A DNA stretch of 64,000 nucleotides, taken from assembly GCF_900188185.1 (NCBI RefSeq), contig NZ_FZPA01000006.1:62001-126000 (forward strand), in the 5' to 3' direction. This document shows positions 45,563-57,232 of the stretch, piece by piece (the stretch's first letter is position 1; each line of letters starts with the position of its first letter). This DNA is from Sphingopyxis indica (GTDB lineage Bacteria > Pseudomonadota > Alphaproteobacteria > Sphingomonadales > Sphingomonadaceae). A program made the position numbers and the translations under genes. The notes under the pieces are model-generated. The model saw only the letters and a list, made by a program, of their open reading frames with translations, was not told the origin of the DNA and ran no database searches.

Positions 45563-46183
45563 ATGTTTCGTCGCGCGGACTTTCGCCTCGCCGCCCTGAC
45601 CGCCGCCTTTGCGGCCTCCGCCCTGCTCGCCGCGCCCGCGGCGGCGCAGTTCAGCGACAGCTACAGCTTCCTGCAGGCGGTCGAAAAGCGCGACGGCGAC
45701 GAAGCGACGAAGCTGCTCAACGACAATGACGCGGGCATCGTCAACACGCGCCACCCCGACACCGGCGAAACCGCGCTGATGATCGTCGTCAAGCGCCGCG
45801 ATTCGACCTGGCTGCGCTTCCTGCTCGCCAAGGATGCCGATCCGTCGATCGCCGACCGCCAGGGGATGACGCCGCTGATGCACGCGGCGATGCTCGACTT
45901 CACCGACGGTGCGACGCTGCTCCTCGACGACGGCGCCCCGATCGATCAGACCAACCGGCGCGGCGAGACGGCGCTGATCCTAGCGGTGCAGGCGAACAAC
46001 CCCGCGATGGTGCGGCTGCTCGTGCGGCGCGGCGCCAATCCCGACAAGGCCGATCATATCGCCGGCATGTCGGCGCGCGATTACGCCCGGCGCAACGACC
46101 GTTCGGGCCGGATGGCGGCGCTGCTCGACGAAAAGGCCGACGCCGCGGCGCGCGATACGGGAGCCGTTTTCGGACCAAAATGA
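45563..46183 (+). CDS. Periplasmic ankyrin-repeat protein
   Basis: A 206-residue protein: signal peptide (~1-28), then about four ankyrin repeats ('TGETALMIVVKRRDSTWLRFLLAK', 'QGMTPLMHAAMLD', 'RGETALILAVQANNPAMVRLLVRRGANPD'). Binds a protein partner, probably in the periplasm. Divergent from SCO1; 56 bp before the ribBX start. Confidence 0.92.
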   Translation: MFRRADFRLAALTAAFAASALLAAPAAAQFSDSYSFLQAVEKRDGDEATKLLNDNDAGIVNTRHPDTGETALMIVVKRRDSTWLRFLLAKDADPSIADRQGMTPLMHAAMLDFTDGATLLLDDGAPIDQTNRRGETALILAVQANNPAMVRLLVRRGANPDKADHIAGMSARDYARRNDRSGRMAALLDEKADAAARDTGAVFGPK

Positions 46184-46191
46184 TCATGGTG

Positions 46192-46228
46192 ATGTGATTG
46201 ACGGATTGACAATCACATTATGATGTGA
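46192..46228 (+). promoter_or_regulatory. Operator-like promoter of ribBX (ATGTGA half-sites)
   Basis: Perfect 9-bp inverted repeat ATGTGATTG-N9-CAATCACAT (46192-46218), followed by a third half-site making TCACATTATGATGTGA (46213-46228). A -10 like TATGAT (46219-46224) lies inside, with TTGACG (46198-46203) as a 15-nt-spaced -35. The RNA would start only a few bases before the ATG at 46240. Repressor binding here would block the promoter. Confidence 0.7.
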
Positions 46229-46239
46229 ATATTGGCGGC

Positions 46240-47514
46240 ATGTCTACGCAGCTCATTGATCGCATCCGCGCCATCGTCGACGATGGTGCGATGTCGCGCT
46301 CGGGCCTCGCCCGCGCCGCCGGCCTCCACGCCAACAGCCTGCGCGATCTCGATTCGCCCGGCTGGAACCCGACGGCGGAAACGCTGCGCAAGCTCGAAAA
46401 CTGGCTCGCGCACGGCAGTGACCTGTCGCCGATGGCCAGCCCTGAGGAAATCATCGCCGAGGCGCGCAACGGCCGCATGTTCATCCTCGTCGACGACGAG
46501 GACCGCGAGAATGAGGGCGATCTGATCATCCCGGCGCAGATGGCGACCCCCGATGCGATCAACTTCATGGCGACCCACGGGCGCGGCCTGATCTGCCTTG
46601 CGATGACGCGCAGCCGCGTCGAGGCGCTCGGGCTCGAGCTGATGAGCCGCAACAATGGCACGCGCCACGAAACCGCCTTCACCGTGTCGATCGAGGCGCG
46701 CGAGGGCGTCACCACCGGCATTTCGGCGGGCGACCGCGCGCGCACCGTCTCGGTCGCGATCGACGCCTCGAAGGGCCGCGACGACATCGTGACGCCGGGG
46801 CATGTCTTTCCGCTGATCGCGCGCGACGGCGGCGTGCTCGTGCGCGCGGGGCATACCGAGGCATCGGTCGACATCGCGCGCCTCGCCGGGCTGACCCCCG
46901 CGGGCGTGATCTGCGAGATCATGAACGAGGACGGCACGATGGCGCGCCTCGACGACCTGATCCCCTTCGCGCGCCGCCACGGGCTGAAGATCGGGACGAT
47001 CGCCGAGCTGATCGCCTATCGCAGCCGCAGCGACCGGCTGGTCGAATGCGTGTCCGACGAGCCGTTCGAATCGGACTATGGCGGCGACTGGCGGCTCAAA
47101 TCCTATCGCAACAAGATCGACGGCAGCGTCAACATGGTGCTGCAGAAGGGCGCGGTCGATCCCGAGGGCGTGACCCTGGTGCGGATGCATCCGGTGTCGC
47201 TGTTCGACGATCTGATGGGCCGCCCGGGGCCGAAGAAGCGCCGCCTGCAACGCTCGATGGACGCGATCGGCGAGGCGGGTGCGGGCGTGATCGTGCTGCT
47301 GATGCGTCCGCTGCCCGGCTCGGCCGCCGCCGAAGCCGCGCCGCCGCCGTCGGGCGGCATGGACCTTCGCACCTATGGCATCGGCGCCCAGATCCTCGCC
47401 GACCTCGGCGTCCACGCGATGGAGCTGCTGACGCCGACGCACAGCAACCTCGTCGGGCTCGAAGGCTATGGCCTGTCGATCGTCGGCGAACGCGCGATTC
47501 CGGGAGAGGCATGA
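46240..47514 (+). CDS. ribB: HTH-fused 3,4-dihydroxy-2-butanone-4-phosphate synthase with degenerate GCHII domain (HTH-RibBX)
   Basis: A 424-residue protein in three parts. Residues 1-60 form a Cro/XRE-like helix-turn-helix ('[19 protein letters not shown]' with '[14 protein letters not shown]'). Residues ~68-265 are an intact RibB: '[11 protein letters not shown]', 'TPGHVFPL' and '[16 protein letters not shown]'. It converts ribulose-5-phosphate to the four-carbon riboflavin precursor. Residues ~266-424 resemble GTP cyclohydrolase II, but the region that should carry the zinc cysteines reads '[18 protein letters not shown]', without Cys, so that activity should be lost. This matches RibBX-type proteins of alphaproteobacteria, here with an added DNA-binding domain. 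ribH follows with a 4-bp overlap. Confidence 0.9.
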
Positions 47515-47939
47515 TGGCGCACCTATTGATCGTCGAAGCCCGTTTCTATTCGCACCTCAACGACATGCTGCTGGGTGGCGTGAAGAGCGCGCTCGAGGCC
47601 GAGGGGCACAGCCACGAAACGGTGACCGTGCCCGGCGCGCTCGAAGTGCCCGCCGCGATCGCGCTCGGCCACGAGACCGGGCGCTTCGACGCCTATGTCG
47701 CACTCGGCGTCGTGATTCGCGGCGAAACCTATCATTTCGAGGTGGTGTCGAACGAAAGCGCGCGCGGCATCATGGCGCTGACGCTCGACGGGCTCGCGAT
47801 CGGCAACGGCATATTGACCGTCGAAAACGAAGAACAGGCGCTTGCGCGCGCCGACAAGACGCGCAAGGATAAGGGCGGCGAGGCGGCGAAGGCCGCGCTC
47901 GCGATGCTGGCCCTGAAGGAACAGTTCGGCGTTGCTTGA
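47511..47939 (+). CDS. ribH: 6,7-dimethyl-8-ribityllumazine synthase
   Basis: A 142-residue lumazine synthase: '[20 protein letters not shown]', '[15 protein letters not shown]', '[22 protein letters not shown]' and '[18 protein letters not shown]'. It makes the ribityllumazine that RibE converts to riboflavin. The start overlaps the ribBX stop (ATGA), so the two enzymes, which act in consecutive steps, are coupled. Confidence 0.96.
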
Positions 47940-54883: not shown

Positions 54884-55513
54884 CTAACCCCGCACCTGCT
54901 GCATCCGCGCCAGATAGCGCGCGAGCACGTCGATCTCGAGGTTCACCGGCCGCCCCGCCGCGGCTTCGTCGAGCGTCGTCACCGCCTGCGTATGCGGGAT
55001 GATGTTCAGCGTGAAATGCGCGGCTCCGCCCGGCTGATCGGTCACTTCGTTGACCGTCAGCGAGACGCCGTCGAGCGTGATCGAGCCCTTGGGCGCGATG
55101 TGCGGCGCGAGCGACGCCGGGGCTTCGACGGTGACCTTGACGCTGTCGCCGACGGGTTCGACCGCGACGATCCGGCCGACCGCATCGACATGGCCGGTGA
55201 CGATATGCCCGCCAAGCTCGTCGCCGACCTTGAGCGCGCGTTCGAGATTCAGGCGGCGGCCGACGTCCCACATCCCGGGCGCGGTGCGCGCGATCGTTTC
55301 GGCGCTCGCGTCGATCGCGAACCAGCCCGCGGGGCCGTTGCTGCCCGCATCGACCCCCTTGTCGACCACGGTCAGGCACGCGCCCGAGCAGGCGATCGAC
55401 GCGCCGAGGTCGATCGTGTCGACGTCATAGGCGGTGCCGATAATCAGGCGCGTATCGCCGCGATCCTCGCGCGCGCGGACGGTGCCGATGTCGGTGACGA
55501 TTCCGGTGAACAT
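54884..55513 (-). CDS. ribE: Riboflavin synthase (alpha subunit type)
   Basis: A 209-residue protein of two similar beta-barrels: 'MFTGIVTDIGTV' and later 'GGHIVTGHVDAVG'; active-site region 'SIACSGACLTVV' and 'SITLDGVSLTVNEV'. Dismutates ribityllumazine to riboflavin. It starts at ATG 55513, 7 bp after ribD, so the two are co-transcribed. Confidence 0.96.
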   Translation of the reverse strand: MFTGIVTDIGTVRAREDRGDTRLIIGTAYDVDTIDLGASIACSGACLTVVDKGVDAGSNGPAGWFAIDASAETIARTAPGMWDVGRRLNLERALKVGDELGGHIVTGHVDAVGRIVAVEPVGDSVKVTVEAPASLAPHIAPKGSITLDGVSLTVNEVTDQPGGAAHFTLNIIPHTQAVTTLDEAAAGRPVNLEIDVLARYLARMQQVRG

Positions 55514-55520
55514 GAAGCGG

Positions 55521-56495
55521 TCAATCCTTCCTGATGCGCTCGTAGACGTCGAGCCGGTCGCTGCCAAGCATCCGGCTGTCGGCGAGCCGCCAGCGGCCGT
55601 GCGCCGTCGCAAGGTCGGCGAGGCCGATGTCGCCGAGCGCAGGCCGGCCGCCGCCGATCAGGATCGGCGCGCGATAGAGGAGCAGGCGGTCGACCTTGTC
55701 GGCAGCGAGGAAGGCCGACGCCGCCCCCGCGCCGCCCTCGACGAGCAGCGAATCGACGCCGGGGTCTGCCTCGGGTCCGGCAAGCGCGGTCCAGCCGTCG
55801 GGGGCGTCCCCACGAGTGAGCAGGAAACGCCGCGGACTGCGCGCCTCGAGCCCGGCGAGCCGCACGTCGAGCCGCGGCCTGTCGGCAGCGAGCGTGCCGC
55901 GCCCGACCAATATGCCCTCGTGCAACGCGCGCTCGAGATGGCCGTGCGCGCGCGCGCGGTCGCCGGTGATCCAGCGGCTCGACCCGTCGGGCATGGCGAT
56001 GCAACCGTCGAGCGAGGTCGCGAGCTTGAGCGTCACGAACGGCCGCCCGTGCGTCGCGCGCAACCACCAGGGCGCCATCGCCGCGCGGGCTTCCTGCGCG
56101 AGCACGCCCGTTTCCACCGCGATCCCCGCCGCGCGCAGCCGCGCGATACCCTGGCCATCGGTGCGCGGGTCGGGGTCCTGCACCGCAACCACCACCCGCG
56201 CGACGCCGGCGGCGATCAGGCTGTCGGTGCAGCACGGGCCGCGCGCGCTCGTATGCGCGCAAGGTTCGAGCGTGACGTAAACGGTGGCTCCGCGCGCCGC
56301 ATCGCCCGCCGCGGCGAGCGCCATTGCTTCGGCGTGCGGACGGCCGCCGGGTTGGGTCCGGCCGCGCGCGACGATCCGCTCTTTCGCAACGATCACGCAG
56401 CCGACATTGGGATTGGGCGCCGTCAGGCCGCGCCCGCGCCATGCCAGCGCGACGGCGGCGGCCATCCAGTCGGCATCGGCGCGCGGTCGCTGCAT
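55521..56495 (-). CDS. ribD: Bifunctional riboflavin deaminase/reductase
   Basis: A 324-residue protein. N-terminal deaminase (~1-145) with zinc motif 'HAEAMAL' and 'EPCAHTSARGPCCTDSL'; C-terminal reductase (~150-320, 'PFVTLKLATSLDGCIA', 'LLVEGGAGAASAFLA'). It carries out the second and third steps after GTP ring opening. Its start touches the stop of the upstream membrane-protein gene (1-bp overlap). Confidence 0.96.
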   Translation of the reverse strand: MQRPRADADWMAAAVALAWRGRGLTAPNPNVGCVIVAKERIVARGRTQPGGRPHAEAMALAAAGDAARGATVYVTLEPCAHTSARGPCCTDSLIAAGVARVVVAVQDPDPRTDGQGIARLRAAGIAVETGVLAQEARAAMAPWWLRATHGRPFVTLKLATSLDGCIAMPDGSSRWITGDRARAHGHLERALHEGILVGRGTLAADRPRLDVRLAGLEARSPRRFLLTRGDAPDGWTALAGPEADPGVDSLLVEGGAGAASAFLAADKVDRLLLYRAPILIGGGRPALGDIGLADLATAHGRWRLADSRMLGSDRLDVYERIRKD

Positions 56496-57084: not shown

Positions 57085-57113
57085 TTGCACAATTCATTGT
57101 GCAGTGCAATATC
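57085..57113 (+). promoter_or_regulatory. Promoter with TGCACAAT palindrome, upstream of sRNA
   Basis: TTGCAC (57085-57090), 17 nt, AATATC (57108-57113) is a plausible weak promoter. The perfect inverted repeat TGCACAAT-TC-ATTGTGCA (57086-57103) sits in it. A second palindrome TTGCA-N5-TGCAA lies at 57049-57063. Either could regulate the sRNA or the divergent membrane-protein-ribD-ribE operon. Confidence 0.5.
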
Positions 57114-57115
57114 AC

Positions 57116-57178
57116 ACTTGCCTTTTAGGCATCCTCTCCCAAAACTTTCACGGGCCGCCTTCGGGCGGCCCTTTTTTT
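57116..57178 (+). ncRNA. Small RNA, MmgR/suhB (alpha-r8)-like
   Basis: About 60 nt with the layout of alphaproteobacterial alpha-r8/MmgR sRNAs: a short 5' hairpin (TGCC-TTTTA-GGCA, 57119-57131), a single-stranded CCTCTCCC stretch (57133-57140) that could pair with ribosome-binding sites, then the terminator hairpin. No reading frame. The family match is from memory and needs a covariance search. Confidence 0.55.
57152..57178 (+). terminator. Rho-independent terminator of the small RNA
   Basis: Stem GGGCCGCC/GGCGGCCC, loop TTCG, then seven T. It points right, while both neighbouring protein genes point left, so it must end a plus-strand RNA. Confidence 0.85.
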
Positions 57179-57232
57179 CGACTTTTTTGGTTGAGAGTCG
57201 CACCGCCCCTCGCGAATCGGGGTCTTTCCCGA

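Follow-up and report, generated by a model that had tools for sequence, protein, structure and literature searches.

Phage repressors of the Cro type are small helix-turn-helix (HTH) proteins that bind palindromic operators in their own promoter as part of the CI/Cro switch. Control of a promoter can also be exerted by metabolic enzymes: the trigger enzymes PutA, BirA and NadR bind DNA, repress genes of their own pathway and have established ligand switches. In the riboflavin pathway, regulation by the archaeal protein RbkR, a fusion of an HTH and a riboflavin kinase, is controlled by its ligand. The RibBX proteins of Proteobacteria, reportedly described by Brutinel et al. in 2013, consist of a RibB enzyme fused to a degenerate RibA domain. 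Earlier work cited in PMC10012899 attributes to the X domain of Shewanella RibBX a control over RibB activity whose mechanism is unknown, and the passages on RibBX in that paper make no mention of an HTH or an operator. For Wolbachia, the available part of another study reports wBmxR1 and wBmxR2 as protein factors that act at the ribA promoter and regulate it positively (PMC3518464). In the open-access literature, a scope that leaves subscription papers mostly outside, no description was found of an HTH-RibB protein or of a TCACAT-N4-ATGTGA operator. The comparison of loci presented here suggests that, in a Sphingopyxis-like host and in most of its sampled family relatives, RibBX carries such a domain behind the probable target site of the latter and very probably lowers the expression of the gene that encodes it.

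The ribBX locus and its N-terminal domain

The window, that is, the whole 64-kb stretch of DNA that was analyzed, carries ribBX together with ribH, and the two genes are presumed to form one transcript. ribE and ribD are found about 7-9 kb from ribBX (Table 1). Further on, positions 57113-57186 match the suhB/mmgR small RNA family with 54.9 bits.

Table 1. Positions of the genes, domains, promoter elements and putative operators in the window.
Feature	Position	Strand	Basis or remark
O2, second degenerate putative operator GATCATGGTGATGTGA	46182..46197	+	31 bp upstream of O1; only the right half (46192-46197) fits well
-35 box TTGACA	46206..46211	+	Promoter scan; conservation of TTG across loci
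O1, main putative operator TCACAT-N4-ATGTGA	46213..46228	+	At ≤2 mismatches in 143/145 HTH+ and 0/103 HTH- loci
Probable -10 region	46229..46234	+	17-nt spacer; the promoter scan instead scores AATATT at 46228-46233 (16-nt spacer)
ribBX ORF	46240-47514	+	424 aa; intact RibB followed by a degenerate GTP-cyclohydrolase domain
HTH domain, RibBX residues 1-58	46240..46413	+	Found in 145/249 loci
RibB (DHBP synthase) domain, residues 69-260	46444..47019	+	Pfam PF00926 DHBP_synthase, 8.6e-85, 283.5 bits, full length
RibX, degenerate GTP cyclohydrolase II domain, residues 273-417	47056..47490	+	Pfam PF00925 GTP_cyclohydro2, 3.4e-28
ribH	47514..47939	+	tblastn, 74% identity; overlaps the ribBX stop codon
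ribE	54890..55513	-	tblastn; away from ribBX, opposite strand
ribD	55536..56477	-	tblastn; away from ribBX, opposite strand

An earlier reading of this DNA, made from the sequence only, had placed an intact RibB behind some 60 additional N-terminal residues, and the open reading frame and its Pfam domains confirm this arrangement. The RENEGD motif of the RibB domain is invariant in an alignment of 30 rows. The C-terminal domain, when aligned with RibBA 4i14, has no counterpart of the zinc-ligand cysteines of the SEC...RRCDC stretch, and the protein is therefore a RibBX. A separate and intact GTP cyclohydrolase II domain (201.6 bits) is encoded elsewhere in the same genome. The closest named relative found is a Sphingopyxis sp., with 92% protein identity.

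The N-terminal domain is harder to classify. For residues 1-60, no Pfam family scores above its cut-off, and a profile of the HTH has no match among solved structures at E < 0.18. The AlphaFold models are of moderate quality (mean pLDDT of 76.9 for the HTH and 79.4 for the full-length protein), with the recognition helix unassigned. Foldseek searches return mostly HipB, SinR and similar HTH proteins as best matches, at E values of 0.096 and above, which are compatible with an XRE-type fold and no proof of it. The Cro/XRE-like HTH that had been read from the sequence does exist as a domain of about 60 residues, but its membership in Cro/XRE is weak from sequence alone and is assigned mainly because its relatives adjoin CI-type repressors. 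Across 385 genomes of the class, the HTH profile finds matches in 27, of which four belong to the family of the window (E < 1e-28) and 23 are other genomes with E values of 1.7e-11 or weaker.

The HTH and its probable operator across genomes

TCACAT-N4-ATGTGA (O1) occurs without mismatch in front of ribBX and is the only match in the window at up to two mismatches, a tolerance at which shuffled sequences give a mean of 0.77. The sequence-only reading had described a different palindrome over this promoter, ATGTGATTG-N9-CAATCACAT, accompanied by a third half-site. Both elements are present, the former exactly at 46192-46218 and as the sole match in the window at up to three mismatches (0 in 100 shuffles). 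However, this 27-bp palindrome is made of the right half of O2 and the left half of O1, and it was rejected as the main operator because its exact spacing is kept in only 32 of 143 loci. The conserved unit is instead the 16-mer formed by the second and third half-sites, whose N4 spacing is common to all 143 loci, although the same pattern also defined that set.

The comparison comprises 249 RibB loci. For the family, 199 genomes were drawn, 193 of them with a RibB relative, and the loci of 167 were examined; 25 listed ones and the contig-edge fragment of G176 were left out. This yielded 169 family loci, to which 80 named loci, where species may repeat, were added; L001 is the window's own genome. 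A free-standing HTH without RibB core (L206) was dropped. Taking a phmmer E value below 1e-3 as the criterion, the HTH is encoded in 145 of the 249 loci and missing from 104; within the family alone, the figures are 132 of 169 with the domain and 37 without. All 145 HTH+ loci, as defined, hold the enzyme and the DNA-binding domain in a single open reading frame, and the recognition helix GLH[AP]N[ST]LR and the motif WNP[TS]..T are nearly invariant among these proteins. Many HTH-less RibBX proteins of the family (L195, L200, L214 and others) carry, in place of the HTH, a short N-terminal stretch ending in RLRH[AG][FY].

The operator was searched in the 400 nt upstream of the RibB core, allowing up to two mismatches. 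It is found in 143 of the 145 HTH+ loci (80 exact, 46 with one mismatch and 17 with two), the best site in the remaining two having three mismatches. The HTH- loci, 103 after exclusion of one with less than 200 nt upstream, contain none, again with three mismatches at best. Neither the pattern read backward nor shuffled upstream regions ever fell below three mismatches. A control stretch inside the gene did so in 5 of the 145 HTH+ loci (exact in L016; one to two mismatches in L030, L035, L121 and L124); these operator-like sequences occupy the same codons close to the ribX end and are probably a coincidence. The aligned sites give a consensus of about ATCACATT-NN-AATGTGATA. The question raised by the sequence-only reading, whether homologues conserve the HTH together with the ATGTGA palindrome, is thereby answered in the affirmative for the N4 form. 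A tree built from 156 RibB cores requires at least 8 changes of the HTH and 9 of the site, and in the independent contrasts on well-supported branches the site goes with the HTH in 3 of 3, a number too small, among related loci, for a claim of significance.

At the scale of whole genomes, the exact operator is present in 85 of the 199 family genomes, and the reversed pattern is not among the matches listed for the same set. Of the 75 exact sites among the matches listed family-wide, 70 fall within 200 nt upstream of ribBX. Since nearly all of them stand directly before ribBX, the sequence has the appearance of a site for local autoregulation and not of one that serves a regulon, and a wider regulon left no sign, just five of these 75 sites being located away from the ribBX upstream region. 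The five are in G152, in codons of ribX; in G104 and G165, where the genes that contain or follow them are unrelated; and in G103 and G101. The G103 site (L456 2430-2445) is intergenic, some 1 kb past ribH, and no target gene is evident for it. G101 (G101:C21, L441 3186-3316) has three operator-like sites, one exact and two overlapping with one mismatch, the last of which ends 14 nt before the gene for a phage terminase large subunit; the HTH-RibBX of this genome has that exact site too, and beyond it the genome has a single, weak relative of the HTH.

The position of the operator relative to the promoter is conserved as well. O1 fills the spacer between the -35 and -10 elements of the ribBX promoter, overlapping the TTGACA-16-AATATT promoter-like site, and two minus-strand sites are also predicted there. 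The TTG of the -35 box is exact at the expected place in 40 of the 143 loci and within one base in 78, compared with 4 at a control place. At the -10 position, the first two bases are T in 69% and A in 65% of the 143 loci, and agreement with TATAAT is modest, with a mean of 2.13 of 6 positions, where shifted places give 1.03-1.68. In 82 of the 143 loci, the distance from the operator to the first in-frame ATG is 11-14 nt; in the remaining 61 this ATG is at a different distance or the gene starts with a different codon. A standard -10 box would place the start of transcription at or beside this ATG, so the ribBX transcript is probably leaderless, judging from the -10 position, and the leader of about 10 nt assumed earlier is more likely to be near zero.

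Prophage relatives and probable origin of the HTH

Free-standing relatives of the HTH, proteins of 60-140 aa, are present in viral contigs. In the family, three genomes (G017, G021 and G036) encode such relatives at E <= 1e-6, besides a few weaker ones, and all three adjoin a CI-like repressor of the Peptidase_S24 type. The G017 element additionally includes a terminase small subunit and a D5-type primase. Its HTH protein has a GLHPNTLR helix and, before its own gene, two operators of the RibBX type 31 bp apart. About 2.8 kb from this Cro-like gene the same prophage carries a second pair of such operators, also 31 bp apart (L288 162-208), in an arrangement resembling OL/OR. The two RibBX copies of G017 (L204 and L205) are HTH-less, so that the genome combines them with a prophage bearing the free-standing domain.

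Where the recognition helix of a relative differs, the palindrome at this position is also another one, still with N4 spacing; for example, GCATAT...ATATGC pairs with an HHNTLLG or HRNTLYG helix, and ACGCAT...ATGCGA with MNDTTLR. That the half-site differs where the helix differs supports the notion that the HTH and its site are one functional unit. Eleven free-standing copies, picked by their palindrome, were tabulated; L422 and L264, with no clear palindrome, L427, with a different one, and L291, a copy of L290, were left out. In 8 of the 11, TTG stands 6-7 nt before the site and the start codon of the gene 13-15 nt after it, L294, L295 and L263 falling outside this layout. A 14-base form of the operator occurs in at least 120 stretches of viral contigs and is uninformative, and no relative of the HTH is found in those loci at E <= 0.01. 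The phage collection gives 5 records at E <= 1, the best at 1e-3, and the plasmid collection 3 records, one of them annotated as RibB.

The genomic context of the family loci fits the insertion of one promoter-plus-HTH unit. The gap between ribE and the RibB core measures 19-74 nt in 30 of the 37 HTH-less family loci, whereas it reaches 238-867 nt in the 50 HTH+ loci that have ribE before ribBX (238-308 nt in 38 of them); in 85 of the 132 HTH+ family loci, ribE is not within the stretch examined. The outgroup Alphaproteobacteria in the RibB core tree have no HTH, so that the domain may have been acquired early in the family and lost again in some lineages, or may have spread by recombination. 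A tree of the HTH itself, built on 58 columns, does not resolve its origin.

In origin, the HTH and its promoter most likely go back to a Cro-type autorepressor cassette such as those in Sphingomonad prophages, and transfer from phage to rib gene is the likely direction. A fuller scenario is speculative and rather unlikely in its entirety: in an ancestral member of the Sphingomonadaceae, the Cro gene of a temperate phage would have entered the interval separating ribE from ribBX together with its promoter-operator and been fused in frame, producing a flavin-responsive autorepressor in a lineage devoid of the FMN riboswitch; the enzyme may still bind the same-site operators of incoming phages.

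Proposed autorepression, its alternatives and known systems

With high confidence, although from comparative evidence, RibBX is proposed to be both an enzyme and its own repressor, with the HTH acting at O1 in the ribBX-ribH promoter. The self-regulation of ribBX-ribH put forward by the earlier reading is strongly supported by comparison, given the co-occurrence of HTH and site described above; the place of the site in the promoter spacer, its near confinement to ribBX, the prophage relatives and the rarity of the FMN riboswitch in the family also count in favor. In the proposed mechanism, the N-terminal Cro-like domain would act as a dimer, presumably held together by the RibB dimer, and would bind TCACAT-N4-ATGTGA between the -35 and -10 boxes, where bound RibBX would block the RNA polymerase. 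The weaker O2, 31 bp upstream of O1, probably helps. As RibBX accumulates, transcription of ribBX-ribH would decrease.

RibB or RibX might additionally bind a ligand that switches DNA binding, whether FMN, riboflavin or a substrate of the pathway such as ribulose-5-phosphate. This is the sensing of FMN or pathway state suggested by the earlier reading, an extension that would add to autorepression rather than replace it and that is tentatively considered possible, somewhat short of an even chance. The fusion of the HTH to an enzyme, instead of its production alone, speaks for it, as does the near absence of the FMN riboswitch (RF00050) from the family, in 1 of 199 genomes, although with the riboswitch in just 40 of 240 genomes class-wide (38 over the cut-off) this near-absence alone is not special. 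The window and its own genome have none, in agreement with the earlier observation that no such leader precedes ribBX or ribD, and control by an FMN riboswitch elsewhere in the genome is thereby rejected. The sole family genome with the riboswitch (G164) has it directly before ribD (L432 3051-3200) and encodes a complete RibBA, with 47% identity and without HTH or operator, whereas G008, of the same genus, has the HTH and the exact operator. The riboswitch and RibBA of G164 look like a replacement of HTH-RibBX; the contrast is a single case, an illustration rather than a test. Against ligand gating, a Cro-like repressor works without a ligand, and among the rest of the HTH-less family members examined the riboswitch is missing as well, so that flavin feedback is not obviously required. 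On the favorable side there is also the regulation of RibB activity by the X domain of Shewanella RibBX, as related in PMC10012899.

Autorepression has to be weighed against the opposite sign of control. A second site upstream of the -35 box would suit an activator and is common: a right half-site with at most one mismatch lies 30-33 bp upstream of the main operator in 83 of the 143 loci, compared with 6 when a control spacing is used, and a full second operator, at up to three mismatches, in 36. Nevertheless, the best conserved site fills the spacer between -35 and -10, which is the position of a repressor, making activation of ribBX by the HTH improbable. HTH families often have many copies per genome, and the site could in principle serve a separate transcription factor unrelated to the HTH of RibBX; this is very improbable, since the HTH- loci have no site, the exact site is nearly confined to ribBX and the gene of a prophage relative of the HTH is preceded by the same site. 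Hardly any weight is given to the HTH as a vestige without regulatory function, for although its absence from 37 of 169 family loci marks it as dispensable, recognition-helix residues and operator are retained together.

Autorepression by RibBX would be a concrete and testable way in which a family of bacteria nearly devoid of the FMN riboswitch controls riboflavin, and it suggests a route by which a phage switch module joins a metabolic enzyme. It also makes the RibX domain testable as a possible sensor, because the effects of ligands in HTH-RibBX could be read as DNA binding.

Compared with phage Cro repressors, the similarities are a small HTH, a palindrome in its own promoter and, beside the free-standing relatives, an S24/CI-type repressor; here, however, the HTH forms part of an enzyme, with no CI partner taking part. 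The Wolbachia factors wBmxR1 and wBmxR2 are likewise proteins that act at a riboflavin gene promoter of an alphaproteobacterium, but they are separate from the enzyme and are reported to regulate positively. RbkR also joins an HTH to an enzyme of the riboflavin pathway, although it is archaeal, a kinase and ligand-controlled, whereas the protein described here contains another enzyme and probably another HTH. PutA, BirA and NadR, which belong to other pathways and folds and have established ligand switches, share with RibBX, whose regulatory role is predicted, the union of an enzyme and a DNA-binding domain in one protein. The proteobacterial RibBX proteins likewise combine an intact RibB with a RibA-like domain lacking the zinc cysteines, next to a separate intact GTP cyclohydrolase II in the genome, and to this plan the protein described here adds an N-terminal HTH with its own putative operator.
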